A stretch of 64,000 bases of DNA from Streptomyces sp. NA04227. Its GTDB lineage: Bacteria > Actinomycetota > Actinomycetes > Streptomycetales > Streptomycetaceae. The translations under genes and the position numbers were made by a program. The DNA lies in assembly GCF_013364195.1 (NCBI RefSeq), contig NZ_CP054918.1, positions 6,003,001 through 6,067,000 on the forward strand, given 5' to 3'. Shown here in pieces: positions 50,646 to 64,000 of this stretch. How positions within the stretch are numbered: the stretch's first letter is position 1; the number at the start of each line of letters is the position of its first letter. The notes under the pieces are model-generated. The model was not told the origin of the DNA, did not search any database, and was given only the letters and a program-made list of their open reading frames with translations.

Positions 50646-51203
50646 TCACTGCGCGAGGACGCCGTTCTCCGCGCGGCGTTCGGCGACCGTACGGGCCAGC
50701 GTGTCGAGCAGCTCCCGCATCTCGGCCAGGGTCGGCTCGTCGGTGAGGCGGCCGTCGGTCACCTTGCGGGTGGCCATCGGGACGCGCAGGCTCTCGGTGA
50801 GCACGCTCGCGCCCATCACGGTGAGGGTCTCGGTCAGCCAGGCGCGGGCCCGGTCGCCGCCGGTGACCGCGGGGGAGGCGCTCATCAGGGCCACCGGCTT
50901 CTCGGCGATCTCACCGCCGCCGACCAGCCACTCCAGCGCGTTCTTCAGGACGCCCGAGGTGCCGTGCGCGTACTCGGGACTGGAGATCAGCAGGCCGTCC
51001 GAGGCGCCGACCTTGGCCCGCAGCTCGGCCACGACGGCGGGGAGGTCGTTCATCTCGACGTCCGCGTTGAAGAACGGCAGCCGGCTCAGGTCCGGCTCGA
51101 CGGTGATCTCCCACGGCGGTACGAAGAGGTCGGCTGCCGAGCGCAGCACCGCCGCGTTCAGCGACCCCGACCGCAAACTCCCGCACAGTGCAAGGATTTT
51201 CAT
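50646..51203 (-). CDS. NADPH-dependent FMN reductase (flavodoxin-fold)
   Basis: 185 residues. LCGSLRSGSLNAAVLRSAADL binds FMN phosphate, and SSPEYAHGTSGVLKNALEW is the family signature. Such enzymes reduce FMN or quinones with NADPH. The ATG at 51203 lies five bases after the stop of the upstream P450 gene, so they are co-transcribed and probably co-translated. In this operon it could supply electrons or reduced flavin to the pathway; it could also be a protective enzyme. The frame continues upstream inside the P450 gene, but the family begins at MKILALCG. Confidence 0.9.
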   Translation of the reverse strand: MKILALCGSLRSGSLNAAVLRSAADLFVPPWEITVEPDLSRLPFFNADVEMNDLPAVVAELRAKVGASDGLLISSPEYAHGTSGVLKNALEWLVGGGEIAEKPVALMSASPAVTGGDRARAWLTETLTVMGASVLTESLRVPMATRKVTDGRLTDEPTLAEMRELLDTLARTVAERRAENGVLAQ

Positions 51204-51208
51204 GTCGC

Positions 51209-52441
51209 TCAGCCTACGTTCTCGAAGGTCACCGGGAGGGAGGAAAGCGCACGGGAGACGGTGGACGGACGGTAGGAGGGAGCGCCGTCCAGGGCCAGGC
51301 CCGGCAGCTTCGCGAAGATCAGCGGGACCGCGATGCGGGCCTCCAGACGGGCCAGCGGGGCGCCCAGGCAGTGGTGGATGCCGTGGCCGAAGGCCAGGTG
51401 GGTGCGGTCGCCGCGGGTGACGTCGAAGTCCTCGCCGTTCAGGAAGCGCGCCGGGTCGCGGTCGGCGGCGGCCACGCTCAGCGCGACGGCCTCGCCCGCC
51501 GGGATGGTGATGTCGCCGACCGTGACCGGCTTGCGGGTGAAGCGCCAAATGGCGTTCTGGATCGGGCCGTCCCAGCGCAGCGCCTCTTCGACGGCGTCCG
51601 GCCAGCGCTCCGGTTCCCGGGTGACGAGCGCGAGCTGGTCGGGGTGGCGCAGCAGCGCGAGGACGGTGCTGCCGAGCAGGTTCACGGTCGTCTCGTGACC
51701 GGCCGAGAGCAGCAGTGCGAGCATCGAGACCAGCTCGTCCTCGCTCAGCCGGTCGGACTGGTCACGGGCGTCGATGAGCGCGGAGGTCAGGTCGTCGCCG
51801 CCCTCGACCCGCTTGCGCTTGACCAACTCGGCCAGATAGCCGTGGACTTCCTGGAAGGCGGCCATCGCCGCGTCCCGGCTGTCCTCGTCGTTGCTCATCA
51901 CCGCTTCGACGGCGCGCCGCAGCCGCTCGCCGTCCTCGGCGGGCACGTCGAGCATGTGCCGGATGACTTCCATCGGCAGCAGCGCCGCGAACTCGGTGGT
52001 CAGGTCCGCCCGGCCGGACAGCTCGCCGCCCCGGGCGAGCAGGCCGTCGAGCAGCCGGGTCGCGGTCGCCTCGATGCTGGGGGCCAGGGCCTCGATACGG
52101 CGGGGCGTGAACGCCTTGGAGACCAGCGCGCGCAGCCGGGTGTGCCGGGGCGGGTCGGAGACCAGCATGGAGTCGCCCATCCCGATCACCACGTCGCCGG
52201 TGATCGGCACCCGCTGCTCCTGGAAGGCGGTCCAGGTGCCCGCCATGTCCTTGGAGTACGAGTCGTTGTCGAGGAAGGCGCGGCGGCAGTCCTCGTACCG
52301 GGTGAGCATCCACGCCTCGACCCCGCCGGGCAGGGTGATGCGGTGCGCACGGGCGTCCTGGCGCAGGCCCGCGTACGCCGGATACGGGTCGGCGACGAAC
52401 TCGGGGGTGAACAGGGCGGCGGCGTACGGGCATTGGGTCAC
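51209..52441 (-). CDS. Cytochrome P450 (bacterial class I type), second in operon
   Basis: 410 residues. Motifs: I-helix LLSAGHETTVNLLG with canonical AGHETT, K-helix EEALRW (ExxR), and heme loop FGHGIHHCLGAPLAR with the axial cysteine. The type is common in tailoring of streptomycete natural products. GTG 52441 or TTG 52453 can serve as start; neither has a strong ribosome binding site. It follows the other P450 by about 100 bases and is tightly joined to the FMN reductase gene. No ferredoxin gene lies near, so electrons must come from elsewhere. Its substrate could be the free or carrier-bound acyl chain or the peptide. Confidence 0.93.
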   Translation of the reverse strand: MTQCPYAAALFTPEFVADPYPAYAGLRQDARAHRITLPGGVEAWMLTRYEDCRRAFLDNDSYSKDMAGTWTAFQEQRVPITGDVVIGMGDSMLVSDPPRHTRLRALVSKAFTPRRIEALAPSIEATATRLLDGLLARGGELSGRADLTTEFAALLPMEVIRHMLDVPAEDGERLRRAVEAVMSNDEDSRDAAMAAFQEVHGYLAELVKRKRVEGGDDLTSALIDARDQSDRLSEDELVSMLALLLSAGHETTVNLLGSTVLALLRHPDQLALVTREPERWPDAVEEALRWDGPIQNAIWRFTRKPVTVGDITIPAGEAVALSVAAADRDPARFLNGEDFDVTRGDRTHLAFGHGIHHCLGAPLARLEARIAVPLIFAKLPGLALDGAPSYRPSTVSRALSSLPVTFENVG

Positions 52442-52550
52442 TGCGGGGTCCAATCCGGTGGCGGGATTTCGGTGGGGGAGCGGTCGGAGAACCGACGGGG
52501 CGAGGCGGCGGGCGGGCCGGGCGAGGATGGTGCCCGGCCCGCGCGGCCTT

Positions 52551-53744
52551 TCACCAGGCGACGGGCAGTTCCCGCACGCCGTACAGCACCATGTCGTGGC
52601 GGAAGGGGAGTTCGCCCATCGGCTTCAGCGGGCGCAGCCCCGGCAGCCGCTCGAAGAGACCGGCGAACACCTCGGTCAGCTCGACCCGGGCCAGGGTGGC
52701 GCCGACGCACTTGTGGAAACCGTGGCCGAAGGCGACGTGGCGGCCGGTGTTCTCGCGGTGGATGTCGAAGGAGTCCGCGTTCTCGAAGACATCCTCGTCG
52801 CGGTTGGCGGCGTTCAGCATCACCAGAACGCCCTCGCCGGCGCGCAGTTGCCGGCCACCGACCTCGACGTCCTCGGTGACGGCGCGCGGCAGTCCGGCGT
52901 GGTTGATGGACAGATAGCGCAGCATTTCCTCGACGGCGCCGGGGACCAGGGCCGTGTCCGCCTTCAACTCGGCGAGCTGGTCGGGGTGTTCGAAGAGGGT
53001 GACGGTGCCGATGCCGATCATCTGGGCCATCGTGTCGTAGCCGCCGAGCAGCAACAGGGCGGCCATGCCCACGAGTTCCTGATGGTTGAGGCCGCCGTCC
53101 GCGGCGCGGGTCACCATCCGCCCGAAGAGGTCCTCTGAGGGCTGCGCCTCCTTCGCGGTCACCAACCGGTCGAAGTACCCCATCAGTTCGCCCGCCGCCT
53201 GTACCGCCTGCTCGGGCGTGCTCCTGCGGTCCAGGACCGTGTCGGTGAGTCTGACGAACAGGACGTGGTCCTCGAAGGGGACGCCGAGGATCTCGCAGAT
53301 GGTCATGGCGGCCATCGGCAGCGCGAACTGCCGTACCAGATCGCCGGATTCGTTGCCGTCCGCGGTCATGTCGTCGATCAGACCGTCGAGGATCCGGCGC
53401 ATCGTGGGCCGCAGCGCCTCCATCTGGTTGATCAGGAACTCGCGGGTCACGGTGCGCCGCAGCCGCCCGTGGTCCGGTGCGTCGGCCTGCATGAAGAAGC
53501 CGGGCGGGGGCGGCACGTCGCCGGTGACATACGTCGGGAAGCCCGGGGTGCGCGGGTCCGAGGAGAAGGCGCGGTGGGTGAGGACGGCGCGTACGTCCTC
53601 GTGGCGGGTGACGATCCAGGCGGTGTCGCCGCGCGGGGTGCGCACCTGGAACACCGGGCGCTCGGCGCCGAGTTCGCGGTACTGGGGCGGCGGGTCGAGG
53701 GGGTGGGTGCGCGGCATCGGGAACTCGGGCAGGGTGGCGGTCAT
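52551..53744 (-). CDS. Cytochrome P450, first in operon, with altered I-helix
   Basis: 397 residues. The heme loop FGHGFHKCVGATLARVEL and K-helix EEMLRYL are normal. The I-helix reads LLLGGYDTMAQMIG: the usual A/G-G-x-E/D-T is kept as GGYDT, with D for E. ATG 53744 has GGAG 8 bases upstream. It lies 51 bases after the acyl carrier protein, in the same operon; this neighbourhood makes hydroxylation or epoxidation of a carrier-bound acyl chain plausible. The KCVG heme segment is of the type seen in P450s from NRPS/PKS clusters. Exact reaction unknown. Confidence 0.92.
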   Translation of the reverse strand: MTATLPEFPMPRTHPLDPPPQYRELGAERPVFQVRTPRGDTAWIVTRHEDVRAVLTHRAFSSDPRTPGFPTYVTGDVPPPPGFFMQADAPDHGRLRRTVTREFLINQMEALRPTMRRILDGLIDDMTADGNESGDLVRQFALPMAAMTICEILGVPFEDHVLFVRLTDTVLDRRSTPEQAVQAAGELMGYFDRLVTAKEAQPSEDLFGRMVTRAADGGLNHQELVGMAALLLLGGYDTMAQMIGIGTVTLFEHPDQLAELKADTALVPGAVEEMLRYLSINHAGLPRAVTEDVEVGGRQLRAGEGVLVMLNAANRDEDVFENADSFDIHRENTGRHVAFGHGFHKCVGATLARVELTEVFAGLFERLPGLRPLKPMGELPFRHDMVLYGVRELPVAW

Positions 53745-53795: not shown

Positions 53796-54071
53796 TCAGG
53801 CGGCGGCGATCAGCGGGACGAGGGCCTCGGCGAGCGGGTTGAGCGAGGGGTTGTCCCACATCAGCGTGGGCTCGACCTCGATGCCGTAGTGGTCCTCGAT
53901 CTCGGCGCACAGGCCGAGTACGTACACCGAGTCGAGGCCGTACTCGTTCAGCGGCAGGTCCACCCGGATCTCCTCGGCCGGGCTGCCGGTGTGGGCGGCC
54001 ACGCGTGCGCGCAGCCACTCCCGCACCTCGTCCGCGGACACCGTCTCGGGCTGGGTGGTGAGTTCGGACAT
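53796..54071 (-). CDS. Stand-alone acyl carrier protein
   Basis: 91 residues. The phosphopantetheine site is EYGLDSVYVLGL with the serine of GLDS. ATG 54071 has GGAGG 5 bases upstream. It sits 19 bases after an acyl-CoA dehydrogenase-like gene, and a fatty acyl-AMP ligase is encoded further upstream in the operon, so it is the probable acceptor of the activated fatty acid and the platform on which the chain is desaturated. Family members of this size serve the same role in lipopeptide pathways. Confidence 0.92.
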   Translation of the reverse strand: MSELTTQPETVSADEVREWLRARVAAHTGSPAEEIRVDLPLNEYGLDSVYVLGLCAEIEDHYGIEVEPTLMWDNPSLNPLAEALVPLIAAA

Positions 54072-54090: not shown

Positions 54091-55899
54091 TCAGGCCCCG
54101 GTGGGGCGGCAGTCGATGTCGAAGGTCAGGCCCGCGTCGAAGCGCCGGACCAGCTCGGCGTGGAGCGGTTCGGCGAGCCGGGCGGGCAGCGGGTCGCGGT
54201 GGCGGTCGAGGTGGGCGCCGAGCCGGTGCAGCGCGGCCAGCGTCGCCGTCGGCCCTGCGGCGTCGGGACGCTGCCACCAGGTGCCGAGGCAGGCGGCGGC
54301 CGCGAGGACACCGGTCCAGCGGGTGGTGAGTCCGAAGGCGTACGGCGAGGCGGCGGGACCGGCCTCGGCGGGGCCGAGCCCGGCCGCGTCGGCGGCCAGC
54401 GCGTCGAGTTCGTCGCACCAGAGGCGGGCCTGCGCCGTGACCGCCTCGTCGTCCCGCGAGGCGGCGGCCTGTGCCGCGCCGAGGACGAGCGAGCGGGAGA
54501 GCGGGTCGCGTCCGCCGCCCGTCACGGTCAGGTCCGTGAAGCACGGGGCGGGCAGCGGCTCTCCGAGGTGGAAGGTCTCCTCGGGCAGTGCGGCGGCCCC
54601 GTCCTTGCGCCAGGTGCGACGGGCGGTCAGCGGCAGCTGGGGCAGCAGCGCCGACTGGCAGGAGACCCGGGAGGCGTGCCCGAAGGCCGAGGGCTGGACA
54701 TCGCGCAACAGCTTCTGGAACAGGGGCTGTTCGGCGCTGCGGAGGTAGAACTGCGAGCCGAGCAGTTCGGAGAGCCGGTATACCGCGTGCATCAGGAGTC
54801 GTGGGACGAAGGCCTTGACGGCGGCGGCGTAGACCCCGGCCTGCGCGGGCGCCGTGTGGGTCGTACGGGCCGCGACCGCGGTGAAGGTGTCGGCGAGGAG
54901 CAGATCGGCGAAGGCCTCGGCGAGGATCGACCGGGACAGCGGCAGGTCGGTGACGGTGCCGCCGTACAGCCTGCGGCCGCGGGCTCCGCGCAGTGCGGTC
55001 CGCAGAGCGGTGTCGAGCAGGCCGATGGTCATGCCGGGCAGCGCGATCCGGGTCGCCTGGAAGGAGCGCAGGGCCGTTTCGACTCCCTGGCCGGGGTTGC
55101 CCACCACACTGTCGGCCGGTACGGCGCAGTCGGTGAACTCGACGCCGCCGAGCTGTACGCCGCGCATCCCGACGGTGCCGAACCGCTCCAGGTGGCGTAC
55201 CGCACCCGTAGGCAAGTCCGCGCTGTCGAGCAGGAGTTGGGAGTGGCTGCGACTGCCCTGCGCCGGGTCCGTACGGGCGAACAGGACCATCGCCTCCGCG
55301 CGCCGCAGATTGGCCACGACCTCCTTGCGGCCGTTCAGGCGCAGCCGCCCGTCCGGCCCGGGTAGCGCGGTGAGTCCCGCGCGCGAGAAGTCGTTGCCGT
55401 GCGCCAGCTCGTGGTACGCGCACGCCGCCCGGCCGCCGGAGAGCAACAGCTCGGCCAGCCACGCCTGTTGGGCCTCACTGCCCGCGGTCCAGACGTTGGC
55501 CCCGGCCATGAAGGAGCCCGCGCCGTAGCCGAGGCCGAGGCAGGGGTCGCGCCGGTACACGGCGCGCATGACGCCGATCAGCCCCTCCAGACCGGTGAAC
55601 CGGCCGCCGAGCGCCGCGGGCACGAAGTGCGCGTTGAGGCCGAAGCCGGTCAGCGACTCTTCGCCCGCGGGGAGCATGTGGCCCTGCTCGTCGGCGGATA
55701 CGACGGCGGCGGTGCCCACCGGATTCGCCCGGTCGGCGGCGTCGCCGAACAGGTCCTCCAGGGCGTCGATCTCCTTGCCGTGCGGGGAGTGCCGGGTGTG
55801 CGCGGAGTACCGGGCGGCAGGGTCCGGTACGCCATGCCGGGCGCCCTCCGAGTCGGTGGGCTCAGCACCGGTCGGCGCGGCGGGGGTCGCGGGAGTCAT
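54091..55899 (-). CDS. Acyl-CoA dehydrogenase-like protein, diverged (subunit 1)
   Basis: 602 residues. The acyl-CoA dehydrogenase fold is recognisable (GSFMAGANVWTAGSEAQQAW, NGRKEVVANLRRAEAMVLFARTD, VETALRSFQATRIALPG, LSELLGSQFYLRSAEQPLFQKLLRD). At the usual position of the catalytic glutamate before the C-terminal helix it has H408 (SAFGHASRV), while its partner has D378 at the aligned site. A C-terminal extension of about 170 residues follows. The ATG overlaps the stop of the partner gene by four bases, so the two are produced together. It may be a non-catalytic or specialised partner, or act on a carrier-bound chain with a different base. Confidence 0.85.
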   Translation of the reverse strand: MTPATPAAPTGAEPTDSEGARHGVPDPAARYSAHTRHSPHGKEIDALEDLFGDAADRANPVGTAAVVSADEQGHMLPAGEESLTGFGLNAHFVPAALGGRFTGLEGLIGVMRAVYRRDPCLGLGYGAGSFMAGANVWTAGSEAQQAWLAELLLSGGRAACAYHELAHGNDFSRAGLTALPGPDGRLRLNGRKEVVANLRRAEAMVLFARTDPAQGSRSHSQLLLDSADLPTGAVRHLERFGTVGMRGVQLGGVEFTDCAVPADSVVGNPGQGVETALRSFQATRIALPGMTIGLLDTALRTALRGARGRRLYGGTVTDLPLSRSILAEAFADLLLADTFTAVAARTTHTAPAQAGVYAAAVKAFVPRLLMHAVYRLSELLGSQFYLRSAEQPLFQKLLRDVQPSAFGHASRVSCQSALLPQLPLTARRTWRKDGAAALPEETFHLGEPLPAPCFTDLTVTGGGRDPLSRSLVLGAAQAAASRDDEAVTAQARLWCDELDALAADAAGLGPAEAGPAASPYAFGLTTRWTGVLAAAACLGTWWQRPDAAGPTATLAALHRLGAHLDRHRDPLPARLAEPLHAELVRRFDAGLTFDIDCRPTGA

Positions 55900-57620
55900 G
55901 CGATCAGCTCCTTCGCGGAGTTCGCCTCGTTCGGGCCGACCGGGTCGTCAGGCACCGTCGGCAGGGAGAGCAGTTCCTCGTACGCGTCCTGTGGTGCCTC
56001 GTGGCCGGGCCTGAGCAGTTCGAGGGAGCGTTCCAGGGCGGCGGTCAGCCGTATCGCGTGAGGTGTGCCGGCGGGTGCGGTGAGCAGCAGGTGGGCGGCG
56101 CTGGCGCCCGCGAAGCACCGTTCGTAGCGGCGGGCGAGCGCGAAGGCCTGAGGGGGTGTGTCGCGGGAGGCCGGGGGCAGTGCCGCCATGGCGTCCGCGA
56201 CCGTGGCGATCTCCTCGGCCAGGGCGGTCGCCGCCTCGTACGCGCGGCGCGGTACGGTGCCGTCCGCCGCGAGGTGGGCGAGCCGGTCGACGGCCGTGGG
56301 CAGCCCCTGCACCACGCTGCACCCGGTGCGGCTCATCAGCCGCAGCGCGCCATGGTCCAGCGGCGGCACCGGGCCGTCGCCGACGAGTACGGCGAGGCCC
56401 TCGGCGTCGTGTGCGCCGGTGCGGGCCCTGCGGGCCAGGACCGGGAACTGGGCGATCAGCGCGGAGCGGTTGACGGCCGTGCTGCCGTCGAAGATCGCCA
56501 CGATGCGATGGTCGCGCTCCAGCTTCTGGAACATCCCGTCGGCGTGCTGCTCGGTCAAGTAGCCACGGGCGCCCAGAAGTTCGGCGAGCTCGTCGATCGT
56601 CTGCTGGACGAGGTCCGGCACACCCGCCTTGACCAGGGCCGATACCACGCTCATCTCGCCGGGGAGGCAGTGCGCCGAGCGGGCGGCGAGCAGCGCGGCG
56701 GCCTCGGCCAGCGCCAGGGAGGCGGCGGCCCGCCCCAACGTGCGGCGAGCAAGGGGAAGTTGGAGCAGTGTCGTGCCGTACAGGGCGCGCCGCTCCGCGA
56801 AGTCGTGGGCGAGTGCGAGGGCGTGCTCGCCCGCGCCGAGGGACAGCGAGGTGCAGACGGTCCTGGTGAGTTGCAGGGCCCGCAGCACGATCTCCAGGCC
56901 CTCGCCGACCCCGCCGATGAGTGCCTCGGCGGGGATCTCGGCGCTGTCGAAGGCGATACCGCTGATGTCCGCGCCCCGGATGCCGTGCGTCGGTTCCTTG
57001 GGCAGCGGACGCCAACTCCCCGCAGCCAGGCGCTCCTTGTCGACGAGGAACAGGCTGAAGCCGCGCGCGCCGCCCTCGGTCGAGGTGCGGGCGAGCACCG
57101 AGATCAGACGGCCGCGGGTCGCGTTGTTGATCGGCCACTTCGCGCCGTCGAGCCGCCAGCCGCCGGTCGCCGTGGGCACCGCGGTGAGCTGCCCGGCCAG
57201 CAGGTCGCTGCCCCGGCCGGGCTCGGTCAGGCCCCAGGACACCACCGCGTGCTCGTCGAGAACCATCCGGGCGAGCGCGCGTCGCTGCGCGTAGGAGCCC
57301 GCGACCCAGGCCGACACCGACCCGAGGTACGTCTTGCCGTGCGCGACCGCCACCGTCACATCGCGGCGTGCCACCGTCCGCAGGGACGCGACGAGTTCGG
57401 GCAACCCGCCCTGCGCGCCGCCTAGTTCGGGGGGTACGTAGGCGTGCGCGATGCCACAGCCGTCGAGTACCGCACAGGCCTCGCCCGGGAACTCCTCGCG
57501 CGCGTCGAGCCGGGCACCGACGGCGGGGTCGAACGGCCCGCCCGGCTCGGCGGCGCGGCGCAGTGCGGTGTCCAGCGTGGCGGGCAGTCCGTCCGCCCAC
57601 TGCGGGAGGTGTCCGGTCAC
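55896..57620 (-). CDS. Acyl-CoA dehydrogenase (subunit 2)
   Basis: 574 residues. FAD- and substrate-binding segments are conserved: WGLTEPGRGSDLLAGQL, GAKWPINNATRGRLISVLAR, RRALYGTTLLQLPLARRTLG and LLGARGYLTEQHADGMFQKL. The catalytic region reads VAIFDGSTAVNRSAL with D378 where short-chain enzymes have IYEGT. Starts with GTG at 57620, overlapping the stop of the fatty acyl-AMP ligase (GTGA). In lipopeptide pathways such as ramoplanin and enduracidin, two dehydrogenases, an AMP ligase and a carrier protein make a 2,4-dienoyl group; by analogy this one introduces a double bond into the carrier-bound acyl chain. Confidence 0.9.
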   Translation of the reverse strand: MTGHLPQWADGLPATLDTALRRAAEPGGPFDPAVGARLDAREEFPGEACAVLDGCGIAHAYVPPELGGAQGGLPELVASLRTVARRDVTVAVAHGKTYLGSVSAWVAGSYAQRRALARMVLDEHAVVSWGLTEPGRGSDLLAGQLTAVPTATGGWRLDGAKWPINNATRGRLISVLARTSTEGGARGFSLFLVDKERLAAGSWRPLPKEPTHGIRGADISGIAFDSAEIPAEALIGGVGEGLEIVLRALQLTRTVCTSLSLGAGEHALALAHDFAERRALYGTTLLQLPLARRTLGRAAASLALAEAAALLAARSAHCLPGEMSVVSALVKAGVPDLVQQTIDELAELLGARGYLTEQHADGMFQKLERDHRIVAIFDGSTAVNRSALIAQFPVLARRARTGAHDAEGLAVLVGDGPVPPLDHGALRLMSRTGCSVVQGLPTAVDRLAHLAADGTVPRRAYEAATALAEEIATVADAMAALPPASRDTPPQAFALARRYERCFAGASAAHLLLTAPAGTPHAIRLTAALERSLELLRPGHEAPQDAYEELLSLPTVPDDPVGPNEANSAKELIA

Positions 57621-59374
57621 GGGGCGGCCTCCGTCAGCAGGGCGCGCACCGCAGGGTCGATCTCCTCGTGCACGGGGGTGAGCGCGCCCTGGAGGAACAG
57701 GGCGCGCATCTCGGAGCGCTGCACCTTGCCGCTCGTCGTCCGGCGGACCGTGCCCGGCCTGAGCAGGGCGAGACCGGCCGTACGCACCCCGAACTCGCGG
57801 AAGACCGTGGCGCGCATCGCCACCGCGAGATCGCGCAGCTCCTCCTCGCCGAACCGGCCGCGGATCTCGTGCAGGACGACGACCTCCTCCTGCGGCACCG
57901 GCACGGTGAACGCGGTGCCCACCAGGGTCGCCAACTGCGGGTGCTGGAGGCGCAGTTCGTGCTCGATGTCGTGCGGGTAGAGATTGCGGCCGTGCACGAT
58001 CAGAAGGTCCTTGCTGCGGCCGGTCACAAAGATCTCGCCGTCGAGCACGGTGCCGAGGTCGCCGGTGCGCAGGAACGGGCCCTCGCCGTCGGCGGTGCGG
58101 GCGCCGAAGGTGGCCTCGGTCGCCTCGGGGCGCCCCCAGTAACCGGCCGCCACGCTGGGACCGCGCAGCCAGATCTCGCCGGTCGTCCCGTCGGGCAGCA
58201 CCCGGTGCCCGTCCGCGTCGACGATCCGTACGTCAAAGTCCGGCACGTCGCCGCAGCCGACCAGCTCGCGGACCGGGCCGCCGGGCCGAGGCTGCTCCAG
58301 GGAGTGCTTCTCCAGGGCCTCGGGGTCCACCGGTTCGATCTTCGGCGGGCGGCTCGCCAGGCCGGAGACGAAGACGGTGGCCTCGGCCATGCCGTAGCAG
58401 GGGGCCAGCGCCTCGGCGCGGAACCCGGCCGGGGCGAAGCGCTCCGCGAAGTCGCGCAGGGTGGACGCCTGGATCGGCTCCGAGCCGTTGGCGGCGAACT
58501 GCCAGCGGGACAGGTCGAGTTGCCCGAGCTGGGCGTCGGTGACCCGGCGCACGCACAGCTCGTAGGCGAAGTTGGGCGCGGCCGAGTAGCCGACGTCGTA
58601 CCGGTCGAGCAGGGCCAGCCACTGGTGCGGGCGCTTGAGGAAGGCCATCGGGGACATCAGCGCGCAGCTGCTGCCGAGGAAGAGGCTGGGCAGCAGCTGC
58701 CCCATCAGGCCCATGTCGTGGTAAAGCGGTATCCAGCCACCGAAGTTGGTGTCCTCGGTGAGGCCGAGGGCGCGGCGCAGGCTGTCCGCGTTGTGCAGCA
58801 GATTGCCGTGGTCGACCATGACGCCCTTGGGGTCGCCGGTCGAGCCGGAGGTGTACTGGAGCAGCACCAGCGTGTCCGGGCCGACGTCCGGGTCGCGCCA
58901 CCGGTCCGCGTCACCGAAGTCCGGCGCGTCACTGGCGGCGACCGCGATGTCCAGGCTCTCGTTCTCGATCCACTGACGAGCCTCCGCCAGCTGCCCGGTG
59001 TCGGTGAGGGCGACCCGTACGCCCGCGTCGGCGGCCATGCCGGTGACCCGGCGCTGCTGGTACTGGAACTGGCCCGGCATCGGCGAGGGCACCGCGACGA
59101 CGCCCGCGTACAGACAGCCGAGGAAGGCCGTGACGAAGGGCAGGCCCGGCGGGTGCAGCAGCATGACGCGCTCGCCGGGGGCGCAGCGCTCCTGGAGCCA
59201 GGAGGCGACCCGGCGGGCCTCGGCGTCCAGGGCGGCGTAGTCGAGGGTGCGGGCGCCGTCGGGCGCGTCGTGGTCGTGGACGAAGGTGACGGCCGCGCGC
59301 CCGGCCCGCTCCGCGGCGTGGCGGCGCAGCAGGTGCAGGGCGCTGGGCTCGCCCAGGAGCAGGGAGTCGGTCAC
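57617..59374 (-). CDS. Fatty acyl-AMP ligase (FAAL)
   Basis: 585 residues. It activates a fatty acid with ATP and passes it to a carrier protein. The adenylating motif is LLQYTSGSTGDPKGVMV; GWIPLYHDMGLMGQLL and KRPHQWLALLDRYDV are typical of FAALs rather than CoA ligases, and the C-terminal domain has RSKDLLIVHGRNLYPHDIE and a terminal RTTSGKVQRSEMR. GTG 59374 overlaps the stop of the upstream reductase (GTGA). The frame remains open upstream inside that gene, but the protein character begins at this start. It should load the stand-alone carrier protein of this operon. Confidence 0.93.
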   Translation of the reverse strand: MTDSLLLGEPSALHLLRRHAAERAGRAAVTFVHDHDAPDGARTLDYAALDAEARRVASWLQERCAPGERVMLLHPPGLPFVTAFLGCLYAGVVAVPSPMPGQFQYQQRRVTGMAADAGVRVALTDTGQLAEARQWIENESLDIAVAASDAPDFGDADRWRDPDVGPDTLVLLQYTSGSTGDPKGVMVDHGNLLHNADSLRRALGLTEDTNFGGWIPLYHDMGLMGQLLPSLFLGSSCALMSPMAFLKRPHQWLALLDRYDVGYSAAPNFAYELCVRRVTDAQLGQLDLSRWQFAANGSEPIQASTLRDFAERFAPAGFRAEALAPCYGMAEATVFVSGLASRPPKIEPVDPEALEKHSLEQPRPGGPVRELVGCGDVPDFDVRIVDADGHRVLPDGTTGEIWLRGPSVAAGYWGRPEATEATFGARTADGEGPFLRTGDLGTVLDGEIFVTGRSKDLLIVHGRNLYPHDIEHELRLQHPQLATLVGTAFTVPVPQEEVVVLHEIRGRFGEEELRDLAVAMRATVFREFGVRTAGLALLRPGTVRRTTSGKVQRSEMRALFLQGALTPVHEEIDPAVRALLTEAAP

Positions 59375-61086
59375 GGGGCAGTCCTCTCGGCACGCGCGGG
59401 CAGGAAGTGGGTGGCCTCGAAGTACGCGAGGTAGCGGCTGATCAGCTCGCGCTCGGGCGGCAGGCACGCGATGCCCGAACCGGTCAGCGCCGCTTGGAGG
59501 TTGGTGGTCCCGAAGACGGGCCTGCTGCCCCGGTAGCCGAGGTCCTCGGCGGGCAGTTCGGGGCCGAACAGCGGGAGGAAACGGGTGAGTTCGTTCTCCT
59601 CGCCGCGTTCGGCTGCGGCGGTGAGTTCGGCGTACCAGTCGGCGTACGAGAGGCGGCGCAGCGGATAGCCGCACTCGGCGAGCAGTGCGACGAACCGGTC
59701 CCAGGCCAGCGGATGCCCGCCCGGCAGGTTGAACGAGGTGCCGTGCCACTGCCCGCCGAGCGCCACATGGGCCACGGCCGCGGCGCAGAAGTCGACCGGG
59801 GTCATCTCCAGGAAGACGTCGAACTCCAGGGCGGCGCCGAGCTGGACGCAGCCCTTCATGGTCGCGTTGAGGAAGGTGTCCGTGGCGCAGGCGCCGGTGG
59901 TCTGCGCGCCCGCGATCTGGCCGGGGCGGTAGACGCAGGTGGGCAGCCCCCGCTCGTGGGCCTGCGCCATCATGCGGTCGCCCACCCACTTGGTCTGCCG
60001 GTAGCCGCCCACCACGCCCTCGGGGTCGGTGGCCGCGTCCTCCGCCCAGCGGTGGTCACCGGGGCGGCCGGGGTAGACGGCGAGCGAGGAGATGTAGTGC
60101 ACCGGCTTGACCCGGTGCCGGGCGGCCAGGCGAAGCACCTCCTGGGTGCCGAGGACGTTGACCGGCTTGAGCCGCCGGTAGGGCAGCGCGTAGCTGGACC
60201 AGGCGCCGTTGTGGACGATCATCTCGACGTCGCGGGCCAGGGCCAGATAGGTCCGGCGGTCAAGGCCGAAGTACGGCCGGGCCAGATCGCCGGGCACGCC
60301 GGTGAACCGTGCCTCGTCGCCGTCGCGCCACACGCCGTACCGTTCCATCGCCGCCCGGACGCGCGCCGCCGCCTGCGCGGGCGTGTCCGCCCGTACCAGG
60401 ACGTGGAGTCGGGCCGTGGAACGGTCGAGGAGTTCACGCATCAGGAAGGCGCCGGTGTAGCCGGTGCCGCCGGTCAGCAGGATCGTGTCGTACGGGCCGG
60501 TCGACGGCGGCAGCGCGTCGGCGGCCGGGACGATGTCGGCGGGCAGGACCGCCTCGGCCGTCAGGTCCTCGCTGGCGAGGGAACGCGGGTGCGCGGAGGG
60601 ACCACCGGACTCGGCCCCGCTGCCTCGCGTGTCGAGGTGGCGTACGAGGCGTTCCACGGTCGGGTGGTCGAACAGCTTGCGCAGACTGATCTGGACGCCG
60701 GTGGCCTCCCGCAGCCGGGCCGCCATCTGCGCGGCCGCCAGCGAATCGCCGCCCAGCTCGAAGAAGTTGTCCTTGAGTCCGACCCGGCCGAGGCCCAGGA
60801 CATCGGCCCAGATCTCGGTGATCCGGATCTCCTCGGGCGTCTGCGGCGCCACATAGGCGGCGGCGCCCGAGGTCTCGTCCTCCGCGAGGGCGGGCAGGCT
60901 GCCCCGGTCGACCTTTCCGTTGGGCAGCTTGGGCAGTTCGGGCAGTACGACGAAGCGGGACGGGATCATCGGGTCGGGCAGCTGCCCGGCGGCGAATTCC
61001 CGCAGGCGGGTGCGGAAGGCGGCCCAAGTCGCTTGTGCGAGAGGGTTGTTGGCCGTCGGGGTGACGGGTGCGTTCACGGTGCTCAC
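59371..61086 (-). CDS. Adenylation-domain tail (A9-A10), PCP and thioester reductase
   Basis: 571 residues. Residues 1-65 are the end of an NRPS adenylation domain: A9 LPDPMIPSRFV (36-46) and A10 LPNGKVDR with the catalytic K58. Then a peptidyl carrier domain with S115 in ELGGDSLAAAQM, and an NAD(P)H-dependent thioester reductase (about 195-571) with GGTGYTG (206-212) and Y362/K366 in GYRQTKW. The protein therefore completes the interrupted adenylation domain encoded by the upstream gene and releases the product as an aldehyde or alcohol. GTG 61086 overlaps that gene's stop (GTGA), so the two are coupled. The N-terminal 20 residues form the junction. Confidence 0.9.
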   Translation of the reverse strand: MSTVNAPVTPTANNPLAQATWAAFRTRLREFAAGQLPDPMIPSRFVVLPELPKLPNGKVDRGSLPALAEDETSGAAAYVAPQTPEEIRITEIWADVLGLGRVGLKDNFFELGGDSLAAAQMAARLREATGVQISLRKLFDHPTVERLVRHLDTRGSGAESGGPSAHPRSLASEDLTAEAVLPADIVPAADALPPSTGPYDTILLTGGTGYTGAFLMRELLDRSTARLHVLVRADTPAQAAARVRAAMERYGVWRDGDEARFTGVPGDLARPYFGLDRRTYLALARDVEMIVHNGAWSSYALPYRRLKPVNVLGTQEVLRLAARHRVKPVHYISSLAVYPGRPGDHRWAEDAATDPEGVVGGYRQTKWVGDRMMAQAHERGLPTCVYRPGQIAGAQTTGACATDTFLNATMKGCVQLGAALEFDVFLEMTPVDFCAAAVAHVALGGQWHGTSFNLPGGHPLAWDRFVALLAECGYPLRRLSYADWYAELTAAAERGEENELTRFLPLFGPELPAEDLGYRGSRPVFGTTNLQAALTGSGIACLPPERELISRYLAYFEATHFLPARAERTAP

Positions 61087-64000
61087 TGCTCCCTCGGCGC
61101 GGTGGCCGCCTGATCGAAAGCCGCCTGATCGAAAGCTGCTTGGTCGAAAGCTGCCTGGTCGAAGGCCGCTTGGCCGGAACCTGCCGCATCGGAGTCCGTC
61201 GTCCCGGGACCGGCGGGCGGGGCGCCCACCGGCTCGAAGACGGCGTCGAACTCGCCCACCCGGCCCGGCTCCGGGGGGATCAGCCGTACCGGCCGCCCGT
61301 GGCGCTCACCGAGGGCGGCGATGTCCTCCGGGTCGAGCGCGCCGTCGCCCTGCGCCTCCCAGACGGCCCGTTCCAGGTCCCAGCCGGTCGCCTCGGCGCT
61401 GTGCTGGCCGTGCAGCAACTCCAGTGCGGCCAGGGGGCGTTCGAGGCGTGCGTCCGGGAGGCCGGTGACCGTCAGCGTCAACTCCGGTGCGGTACCGGCG
61501 AGAAGTTCGGCCAGGGTGCCGGTCCCCTTCAGCTCGTCCCAGGTGACCCGCTTGCCGTCGGCGACCGCGTGCGGCGCGCGGTCGCGCCCCAGGAGGGTCA
61601 CGTCCCAGCGGAACCGGGTCAGTTCGTTGGCGTGGTGGCCGCGCTTGAGCTCGACCCGCAGACCGGCTCCGGCCGAGGCCGCGAACTCCTCGAAGAACGC
61701 GGCGGTCAGGCAGAGTTCGCGTTCCTCGGCGAGGGCGCGGGACGCGGCAGCCGCCACCTCGCGGGCCGGGGCCAGTGCGGGCGCCCGGCGGATCTGGGTG
61801 TCCGCGTGGAAGGCGGGCAGCAGCGACAGATCCCGTACGTCACCGACGAAGACCGCGCCCTGAGGCCCGGCCACCCGCAGTGCCTCGGTGAGCGCCCGGC
61901 GCAGGTAGTCGGCGCCCGGGAAGTACTGGACGACCGAGTTGAAGAGCACCAAGTCGGCCGAGGAGTCCGGGAGTTCGGTCAGGGTGAGCGCGTCGCCCTG
62001 GCGCAGGGTGAGGTGGTCGGGCAGCTTGCCGTCGATGGCGATCGAGGCGGCGGTGGCCAGGGCGGCGGGGGAGAGGTCGATGCCCAGGTAGGAATCGGCG
62101 GCCGGGGCCAGCTCCCGCAGGTAGAGACCGACGCCGACTCCGACGTCCACGATCCGGCGGGCCCCGGTCGCCCGGATCCGTTCGACGGTGTTGCCCAGCC
62201 ACTCGCGCATCTCGTGCGCGGGGATGGGCCGCTTGGTGTAGCTGCTCGCCCACCCCGCGAAGTCCCGTTCGTCGTCGCCGAGTTGGGCGGTCTGCGTCGC
62301 GACGGCGGGCGTGTACGCGCCCTCCCAGACGTCCCGCCAGCGGTCCACGTGGCCGCGCTCGCCGCCCGCGGCCCCCTCCTCGCCGTTCTCGGCGACCGGC
62401 GCGACATAGGCGAGGAGCTCGGCCGCCCCGCCCGTGCGGCGCGCGGCGACGACCGCGACCGAGGCGACCTCCGGGTGCCGCGAGAGCACGCTCTCCACCT
62501 CGTCAGGCTCGATGCGGTGGCCCAGGATCTTCACCTGCCGGTCGATCCGGCCGAGGAACTCCAGCGTGCCGTCGGCCCGCCACCGCACCCGGTCGCCCGT
62601 ACGGTAGAAGCGGCCGCCCGGCACGTCGGTGAACCGCTCGGCGGTCAACTCCGGCCTGTCCAGATAGCCTTCCGCGACTCCCTCGCCGCCGATCCACAGC
62701 TCACCGGCGACGCCCACCGGGGTCTCGCGCCCGTCGTCCGCCGTGACGCGGACCAGGGTGTTGGCGACGGGGCGGCCGATCGGCAGCGCGGCCGCGTGGA
62801 CGTCGCGCTCGCGGTCGAGTTCGTGGACCGTCGACCAGATCGTGGTCTCGGTCGGCCCGTACATGTTGAACACTCGGACCGACGGCAGCGCGCCGAGCAG
62901 CTTCTGGGCGAGCCCGGACGGGAAGGCCTCGCCGCCCACGAGCAGCGCCCGCAGCCCTCGCAGTGCGTCCAGCGCCTCCGGCTGCGCGGCCACCGCCGCC
63001 AGGAACGAGGGGGTGGCCTGGAGCAGGGTGGCGCCGTGGCGGGCCAGGAGCGCGCACAGGCCGTCCTCGCCGTCGGCCGGGGTGAGCCGCTCGATCATGC
63101 GCTCCCCGGCCACCACGACGCTCGCGCCGCGGGTCAGCGGCCACAGCAGTTCCAGTACGGAGATGTCGAACGAGACGCTGGTCAGGGCGAGCACGACGTC
63201 GTCGGCGGCCAGGCCGATCCGCTCGTCCATGGCGGCGGTGAAGTTGACCACGTTGCGGTGCAGCAGGACCGTGCCCTTGGGGCGGCCGGTCGAGCCGGAG
63301 GTGTAGATGACGTACACCGGGTCGCCGGGCCGGGCCTGCTCGTCGAGTGGGTCGGTGGACCGCGCGGCGATCTCGGCCGCGTCCCGGTCGAGCCGTACGT
63401 ACCCGCCCGCGGGCAGCTCCTCGGGACCGCCGGGCCCGGTGACCAGGCAGTCGAGGGCGGCGTCCTCGGCGATGTAGCGCAGCCGGTCGGCGGGGAAGTC
63501 CGGGTCCATGGGGACGTACGCGGCGCCGGCGCGGGCGACCGCGAGCAGGGTGACGACCAGGTCCGCGCCGCGCCGCACGCTCACCCCGACCCGGCGGCCG
63601 CGCCCGGCGCCGCGCTCGCGGAGCAGCCGGGCAAGGCGGGCCGCCCGCTCGTCCAACTCGGCGTAGGACAGGCGCACTTGACCGTCGACGAGGGCGAGGG
63701 CGTCCGGTGTCGCGGCGATCTGGCGGGCGATGAGCCCGGGCAGGGTGGCAGTGGTGCCGAAGTCCGTCGCGGTGGCGTTCCAGGTGTCCAGACGGGCCCG
63801 CTCGTCCGCGCCGCGCAGCTCGGTGGGGGGCGCCGCCTGCGGGTCGGCGGCCAGGGCCGCGAGGGCGCGCGCGTAGTAACCGGCGAGGCGGTCGCAGAAC
63901 TCGGGGTCCAGGGACGCGGTGTCGCAGTCCAGCCAGAGGCCGAGACGGCCGCCCGCCGGGTCGACGAGAAAGTTCGCGGCGAGCGGGAAGTTGGTCTCGG
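61083..64000 (-). CDS. NRPS: condensation (end) - adenylation - N-methyltransferase; continues beyond the window
   Basis: Open to the right edge; about 972 codons are visible. From the edge: the end of a condensation domain (63800-64000), a C-A linker WNATATDFG, then adenylation motifs A3 YTSGSTGRPKG, A4 SFDISVLELLWPL, A5 NMYGPTETTIW, A7 YRTGDRVRW and A8 GRIDRQVKILGHRIE. Next comes an inserted N-methyltransferase (about 61300-62350) with FAGWASSYTKRPIPAHEMREW and the SAM site VDVGVGVGLYLREL, as in microcystin-type modules. It stops before A9 and A10, which lie in the next gene. By-eye specificity residues D-I-L-Q-L-G-M-I-W resemble glycine codes. The last 23 residues are four QAAFD repeats. 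Confidence 0.93.
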   Translation of the reverse strand, partial: ETNFPLAANFLVDPAGGRLGLWLDCDTASLDPEFCDRLAGYYARALAALAADPQAAPPTELRGADERARLDTWNATATDFGTTATLPGLIARQIAATPDALALVDGQVRLSYAELDERAARLARLLRERGAGRGRRVGVSVRRGADLVVTLLAVARAGAAYVPMDPDFPADRLRYIAEDAALDCLVTGPGGPEELPAGGYVRLDRDAAEIAARSTDPLDEQARPGDPVYVIYTSGSTGRPKGTVLLHRNVVNFTAAMDERIGLAADDVVLALTSVSFDISVLELLWPLTRGASVVVAGERMIERLTPADGEDGLCALLARHGATLLQATPSFLAAVAAQPEALDALRGLRALLVGGEAFPSGLAQKLLGALPSVRVFNMYGPTETTIWSTVHELDRERDVHAAALPIGRPVANTLVRVTADDGRETPVGVAGELWIGGEGVAEGYLDRPELTAERFTDVPGGRFYRTGDRVRWRADGTLEFLGRIDRQVKILGHRIEPDEVESVLSRHPEVASVAVVAARRTGGAAELLAYVAPVAENGEEGAAGGERGHVDRWRDVWEGAYTPAVATQTAQLGDDERDFAGWASSYTKRPIPAHEMREWLGNTVERIRATGARRIVDVGVGVGLYLRELAPAADSYLGIDLSPAALATAASIAIDGKLPDHLTLRQGDALTLTELPDSSADLVLFNSVVQYFPGADYLRRALTEALRVAGPQGAVFVGDVRDLSLLPAFHADTQIRRAPALAPAREVAAAASRALAEERELCLTAAFFEEFAASAGAGLRVELKRGHHANELTRFRWDVTLLGRDRAPHAVADGKRVTWDELKGTGTLAELLAGTAPELTLTVTGLPDARLERPLAALELLHGQHSAEATGWDLERAVWEAQGDGALDPEDIAALGERHGRPVRLIPPEPGRVGEFDAVFEPVGAPPAGPGTTDSDAAGSGQAAFDQAAFDQAAFDQAAFDQAATAPREQ
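61104..61172 (-). repeat. 15-base tandem repeat at the 3' end of the NRPS gene
   Basis: Four full units and one degenerate unit of 15 bases (CTGATCGAAAGCCGC and variants on the plus strand) encode (QAAFD)n at the extreme C-terminus, immediately before the split point of the adenylation domain. The unit differences are mostly silent. Confidence 0.85.

Follow-up and report, generated by a model that had tools for sequence, protein, structure and literature searches.

A methyltransferase-interrupted adenylation domain divided between two overlapping genes of a corallorazine-type cluster in Streptomyces sp. NA04227

The gene pair and its cluster

The window analyzed here is the whole 64,000-nucleotide stretch of Streptomyces sp. 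NA04227 (NZ_CP054918.1, positions 6,003,001 to 6,067,000), in which the 3' part of a nonribosomal peptide synthetase (NRPS) gene and a smaller carrier-reductase gene are joined by a four-base overlap and followed by a set of tailoring genes (Table 1).

Table 1. Features of the crz-type cluster in the window
Feature	Position	Strand	Description
crz1-like NRPS gene, 3' part	61083..64000	-	971 aa in window (ORF 61083-63998), 5' end outside window
15-bp tandem repeat, 4.3 copies	61105..61169	-	AAFDQ repeats, variable tail of upstream protein
GTGA stop/start overlap	61083..61086	-	common to both genes; GAGG/GGAG just upstream
crz2-like gene	59371..61086	-	571 aa: A9/A10 half-subdomain, carrier (T), thioester reductase (R)
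crz3-like acyl-activating ligase	57617..59371	-	AMP-binding; best NCBIfam resemblance incl. fatty-acyl-AMP ligases, all below curated cut-offs
Acyl-CoA dehydrogenase, crz4/5-like	55896..57620	-	
Second acyl-CoA dehydrogenase, crz4/5-like	54091..55899	-	
Acyl carrier protein, crz6-like	53796..54071	-	91 aa
Cytochrome P450, crz7-like	52551..53744	-	
Second cytochrome P450, crz7 duplicate	51209..52453	-	
crz8-like FMN reductase ORF	50646..51548	-	FMN_red at residues 116-254; true start inside ORF

The full crz1-like ORF (G000:C1:6064083-6071480 of the 7.89-Mb genome) begins with TTG, encodes 2465 aa versus 2440 aa in the database copy, which leaves its start unsettled, and ends with ...APREQ before the stop codon. 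Pfam finds two Condensation domains, two AMP-binding domains, one PP-binding domain and a methyltransferase (MT) in it, and their order, C-A-T-C-A-MT, is that of Crz1. The 971 aa inside the window comprise the end of C2, A2 from its core to A8, the MT and a variable tail, with AMP-binding at residues 91-446, then a partial PF13193 and then methyltransferase families (Pfam). The match of A2 to PF13193 (AMP-binding_C) covers only profile positions 1-37 of 76, at 22.6 bits and below the cut-off of 24.5, and the corresponding match of A1 is complete (1-76 of 76). The downstream protein has PP-binding and NAD_binding_4 (Pfam) and ends as a thioester reductase (TIGR01746 of NCBIfam, 284 bits versus a cut-off of 213).

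As the sequence-only reading had proposed, the upstream NRPS ends after a methyltransferase inserted behind A8 (GRIDRQVKILGHRIE), and LPDPMIP (A9) and PNGKVDR (A10, with the lysine) lie inside the first 61 residues of the second polypeptide, ahead of T and the reductase. The labels A8 to A10 follow the usual nomenclature, in line with the papers cited below. The MT is inserted between A8 and A9, as in canonical interrupted A domains, and the succession of MT, stop, A9/A10 at the opening of the next gene, T and reductase is that of the crz genes; the A core, MT and A9/A10 do not share one polypeptide here as they do in the TioS/McyA type. The catalytic motifs are retained in both proteins (A3-A5, A7 and A8 in A2, the A10 lysine in the Crz2-like protein).

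The crz2-like ORF opens with GTG at 61086, in a frame different from that of the crz1-like ORF. An alternative GTG start lies three codons downstream at 61077, in which case crz2 would begin right behind the crz1 stop without overlap; the database copy of the protein (P0003) has 568 aa. Eighteen loci were read in DNA and 17 were clear (our own and 16 others), several of them mutually close (L141/L144/L017, L142/L143, L165/L166). At all 17 the crz1 and crz2 parts are in different frames, and at 16 they share an NTGA overlap (11 ATGA, 3 GTGA, 2 TTGA), the single exception being L140, which ends with TAG without overlap. GAGG-, GGAG- or AGGA-like bases are present within 25 bases upstream at 16 of the 17 junctions, which is compatible with coupled re-initiation. 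Since the two parts are in different frames at every readable locus, the border is due neither to chance nor to a single base error, and the sequence-only reading, which took the GTGA overlap for a natural gene border, was right on this point. The eighteenth locus, L164 (G1562:C1:7378001-7398000), has a crz pair whose two genes shift frame several times, through assembly indels or as a decaying copy. It was considered as a fused homologue, with the R domain in the crz1 frame, and rejected, as the border keeps the usual frame order and the changes lie inside crz1 and crz2, so L164 was counted neither way. The AAFDQ tail of the upstream protein is replaced by different or shorter tails in close relatives.

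Relatives of all eight crz genes are present, with those of crz3-8 adjoining the pair, and crz7 is duplicated in most Streptomyces of clade I (PMC11342130). Across 2413 columns the upstream protein has 55% identity to P0146 of Corallococcus coralloides, whose 2376 aa equal the product length of the 7,131-bp Corallococcus crz1 described in PMC11342130, and the downstream protein is 60-62% identical to three Corallococcus Crz2-type proteins. The A2 strings FDISVLELLWPL and NMYGPTETT are identical to those of P0146, and the pocket-region strings of the A domains agree in part with P0146. These pocket strings may be codes for Ser (A1) and Gly (A2). Membership of the cluster in the corallorazine (crz) system is well supported by the domain order, the gene set, the two P450s and the identity to P0146, all read from sequence. 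The crz3-like ligase scores highly with fatty-acyl-AMP ligase models, below their curated cut-offs; its Burkholderia counterpart is annotated as a fatty acyl-AMP ligase, and Crz3 is termed an acyl-CoA ligase in PMC11342130.

Two plasmid loci were also observed. Burkholderia glumae plasmid p48s3p, typed conjugative, has a complete crz-like gene order (L158, 1734-20709: NRPS, reductase, acyl-AMP ligase, two acyl-CoA dehydrogenases, ACP, P450, FMN reductase, MFS transporter) with an IS21 transposase nearby, and the 2.35-Mb linear plasmid of Streptomyces sp. NBC_01450 (L157) has a crz pair with 78% identity and an ATGA overlap.

Spread of the split and position of the cut

Searching with the MT part scored 521 proteins, of which the best 120 were listed, in a length window (1356-4314 aa) that admits fused forms; searching with the downstream protein listed the best 120 of 1238 at 314-999 aa, a range that cannot show fused forms. 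Sixty-two of the 120 listed MT proteins (of 521) stop 7-171 aa (median 17) behind the MT and have no A10, and the remaining ones run on or are partial. In all 43 uncut proteins that were measured the chain reaches the NxP re-entry motif. The same split was found at all 17 readable loci, and no fused Crz1-Crz2 occurred either there or among the 120 listed MT matches (of 521), so that a family made as one polypeptide throughout, which would speak against the sequence-only reading, is not what these relatives show.

Rule-based sorting of the 120 listed rows gave 61 'split', 39 'intact' and 20 'noA10'. P0126 (171-aa tail) was afterwards reassigned to the split group, 14 'noA10' rows were counted intact in the tree after their sequences had been read (among them P0153, disturbed after A9), and 14 of the 120 rows with a short MT match were left out, which resulted in 62 split and 44 uncut proteins (106 in total). 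In the maximum-likelihood tree of these 106 MT domains a single branch (100/100) parts the 62 split from the 44 uncut proteins, and it was recovered in all 200 bootstrap trees examined. The tree was midpoint-rooted for drawing only and is in effect unrooted, so it gives no direction of change. As uncut chains are the usual form, we infer that the split is the derived state and arose by fission, not fusion.

By their listed source names, the 62 split proteins span actinobacteria, myxobacteria and proteobacteria, and the downstream-type names among the matches listed (120 of 1238) include Streptomyces, Kitasatospora, Nocardia, Corallococcus, Hyalangium, Massilia, Pseudomonas and others. With at least 55% identity over most of the length as the criterion of presence, the downstream-type protein was found in 8 of 392 sampled genomes of the genus (our own included), in our own and 3 of 200 genomes of the family sample (one being that of L164, matched only from residue 161), in our own genome only among 396 of the phylum, and in 2 of 249 genomes of the genus of G781 (Pseudomonas). 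The groups of G782 (235 genomes), G783 (230) and G784 (118) gave no match at E <= 1e-120, and these empty results show nothing. Beyond the crz group, a search that scored 428 proteins (120 listed) yielded many short proteins of A9/A10-T type, most of which look like contig-end or mis-started fragments. P0243, the only listed one with an ANN/ANDP-type start, lies on a contig equal in length to that of P0177, a crz1-type match, and is probably a piece of crz2.

A second insertion was observed in part of the family. Among the 120 listed of 521, 29 of the 62 split Crz1-type proteins (P0158-P0211) also carry PF00296 (luciferase-like monooxygenase), with Streptomyces, Kitasatospora, Nocardia and Umezawaea among the named hosts, and such an A domain is interrupted twice in addition to being split. 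The alignments of L141-L144, L158, L162, L163, L165, L166 and L017 are interrupted between A4 and A5, near residue 307 of P0001, by a gap of about 1 kb. For clade I, PMC11342130 names Serratia and Pseudomonas as monooxygenase cases. P0144, P0151, P0156, P0157 and P0162, which are split Crz1-type proteins with a length near 2600 aa and no PF00296 listed, exceed the short form by about 220-250 aa in the stretch that separates their two A8 motifs, perhaps through a different insertion.

In uncut relatives a variable linker leads from the MT to (Y)ANDPL...LRRFLESELPEYMVP...NGKVDR, and the distance from the end of the MT model to the NxP motif has a median of 30 aa (43 uncut proteins; the values 8 and 15 are possibly spurious pattern matches). 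The tail behind the MT has a median of 17 aa in the split clade, and the downstream proteins have a median of 8 aa ahead of the NxP motif (113 of the 120 listed were measured; 1238 scored). These lengths indicate that a stop and a start took the place of the middle of the linker with no obvious gain or loss, and the cut falls in this variable linker ahead of the conserved 'ANDPL' re-entry motif. All 26 downstream proteins that were aligned have N13 and P15 of the motif, and a pattern search places the A10 lysine close to the N-terminus of 109 of the 120 listed downstream proteins (of 1238), to which inspection by eye adds 9. 'ANDPL' thus belongs to the ordinary re-entry segment and does not represent a new docking element. 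The idea that the upstream protein ends in a docking domain was likewise rejected, because the tails (7 to 171 aa) look unrelated between subgroups, and with some tails of only 7 aa no added docking domain is apparent.

The C-terminal subdomain itself is cut in two, the AMP-binding_C match ending at position 37 of 76. In the models the A8 half (a helix and two strands) remains on the upstream protein, and the downstream one is predicted to contribute just the A9 helix and the A10 segment; neither protein has a full C-terminal subdomain, because the cut follows the A8 half. The sequence-only reading had placed the whole C-terminal subdomain in trans, which holds for the A9 helix and A10 segment but not for the A8 half, so that the subdomain itself is completed from two chains. 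In the AlphaFold model of the upstream protein, residues 481-540 have block pLDDT values of 41-57 and are flanked by a well-predicted A core and a well-predicted MT. In that of the downstream protein, residues 1-60 have pLDDT 35-76 with one helix (15-35) and no strand of at least 3 residues; values mostly exceed 80 in the A core, MT and R, and 90 over most of the reductase. The two models were made singly from shallow alignments (21 and 26 rows), and the low values, which agree with incomplete subdomain halves and may equally come from the shallow alignments or normal flexibility, are supportive only. In the PDB the upstream model matches 5wmm best (E 8e-66), the structure of an A domain that carries an inserted methylation domain; with TM 0.39/0.43 and an rmsd of 23 A across 866 columns, the two agree in domain content but not in arrangement.

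Proposed mechanism and alternative explanations

We consider it very probable that this is a crz-type lipodipeptide cluster in which the MT-interrupted A2 is cut by a gene border and completed in trans by the N-terminus of the Crz2-like protein. In the homologous Corallococcus system Crz1.2 with glycine gave no turnover in vitro, and addition of Crz2 at 1:1 gave almost quantitative turnover (PMC11342130). By analogy, the Streptomyces pair would be expected to act on glycine, as the homologue does when both proteins are present. We propose that translation of the two proteins is probably coupled and that the first approximately 60 residues of Crz2 (ANDPL motif, A9 helix, A10 lysine segment) would bind the A8 half on Crz1, completing the C-terminal subdomain of A2 and letting the A10 lysine of Crz2 serve the adenylation site on Crz1. 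The joint A domain would then adenylate glycine and load it onto the carrier of Crz2, a few dozen residues further on, where the Crz1 methyltransferase would N-methylate it; Crz1-C2 would join the N-methylated glycine to the acylated, dehydrated serine, and the Crz2 reductase would release the product, which judging by gene content would be of the acyl-Dha-N-methyl-Gly kind. Loading on the Crz2 carrier would bring substrate, methyltransferase and reductase into one complex. Translational coupling, docking geometry, the direction of fission, and the substrate and product in the Streptomyces strain are thus what we infer.

A base error in one real gene, or a split that is the decaying remnant of a broken gene, has a practically negligible probability: breaks do occur in this family, as in L164 (G1562), where indels shift crz1 and crz2 parts between frames, and in P0022, disturbed after A9, but the same split is found at 17 of 17 readable loci in several genera, 16 of them with the same four-base overlap, the catalytic motifs are kept in both proteins, and an independent plasmid record is annotated as two separate genes with a four-base overlap. 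Nor do we expect A2 of the Streptomyces strain to be inactive and its carrier loaded by another A domain; many other NRPS genes exist in the genome (40 matches to the T/R query region), but with the motifs of A2 and the A10 lysine intact and the homologous pair active (PMC11342130) this is extremely improbable. Ribosomal -1 frameshifting at the overlap could yield some fused Crz1-Crz2 as the working form, and relative to the crz1 frame crz2 is indeed displaced by -1, as such a shift would require. However, the X XXY YYZ heptamer, the sole signal type searched, is absent from the last 20 crz1 codons of the 17 junctions, and separately expressed homologues regain activity (PMC11342130), which makes frameshifting very improbable.

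The split may also be kept by selection as a gate, glycine being activated only when the carrier-reductase is bound, which would prevent idle adenylation or premature methylation. No fused member occurs among the 62 split proteins of actinobacteria, myxobacteria and proteobacteria (120 of 521 listed), the four-base overlap is kept across junctions, and A2 of the homologue is off without Crz2 (PMC11342130). An irreversible old fission accounts for the same facts, however, as re-fusion needs more than one change, and the split may instead leak shunt products, as suggested in PMC11342130, so we regard the gate as rather unlikely. The same low chance applies to its extended form, a selected two-chain switch dating from one old fission, in which the bisected subdomain forms on carrier-reductase binding and activation, methylation and release are licensed together; if true, the switch would represent a naturally split enzyme whose interface lacks a dedicated docking domain.

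Returning to the preferred reading, an A2 completed in trans, the 62 proteins on one branch and the near-constant four-base overlap suggest that the split is an old and stable solution. NRPS engineers seek sites to cut and rejoin assembly lines, and the Corallococcus case is a natural, working cut within an A domain (PMC11342130). A cut is tolerated in the linker just ahead of ANDPL, and the half-subdomain pair is a candidate split site for other MT-interrupted A domains.

Comparison with known systems

Biosynthesis of the antibiotic corallorazine with a split adenylation domain was described by Dreckmann et al. 2024 (PMC11342130), in whose accessible text Crz1 is C1-A1-T1-C2-A2-nMT, Crz2 opens with A9 and A10, and 146 related clusters are counted (Table S3). 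Our literature search, the coverage of which mostly lay outside subscription journals, found a split of this kind only there. The split A domain is already known and published, and the Streptomyces pair is a further conserved example. The accessible main text is silent on the generality of the split and its structural place within the subdomain; new here are the split state on one branch, the NTGA overlap, the cut position and the bisected subdomain.

Among uncut systems, TioS A4-M4 (PDB 5wmm, which spans A and MT by sequence), McyA, KtzH and ColG have the MT inserted at the same place, according to the accessible text of PMC11355689, but in the TioS type the chain continues into A9/A10, whereas the Streptomyces chain ends before these motifs, which come from a second protein. 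The closest uncut relatives of the crz MT among the 120 listed of 521, P0218-P0237 and others (some named Thermoanaerobaculia), have the same (Y)ANDPL-A9-A10 re-entry segment, but their chain is continuous and a linker of some 30 aa takes the place of the stop and start of the crz pair. The nearest counterpart is the pair of Corallococcus coralloides B035 (PMC11342130), in which Crz1 has the same C-A-T-C-A-MT ending behind an A8-inserted MT, Crz2 the same A9/A10-T-reductase, and the functions of crz3-8 adjoin as they do here; the Streptomyces cluster differs in organism, in sequence (55% and about 60-62% identity) and in its doubled P450.
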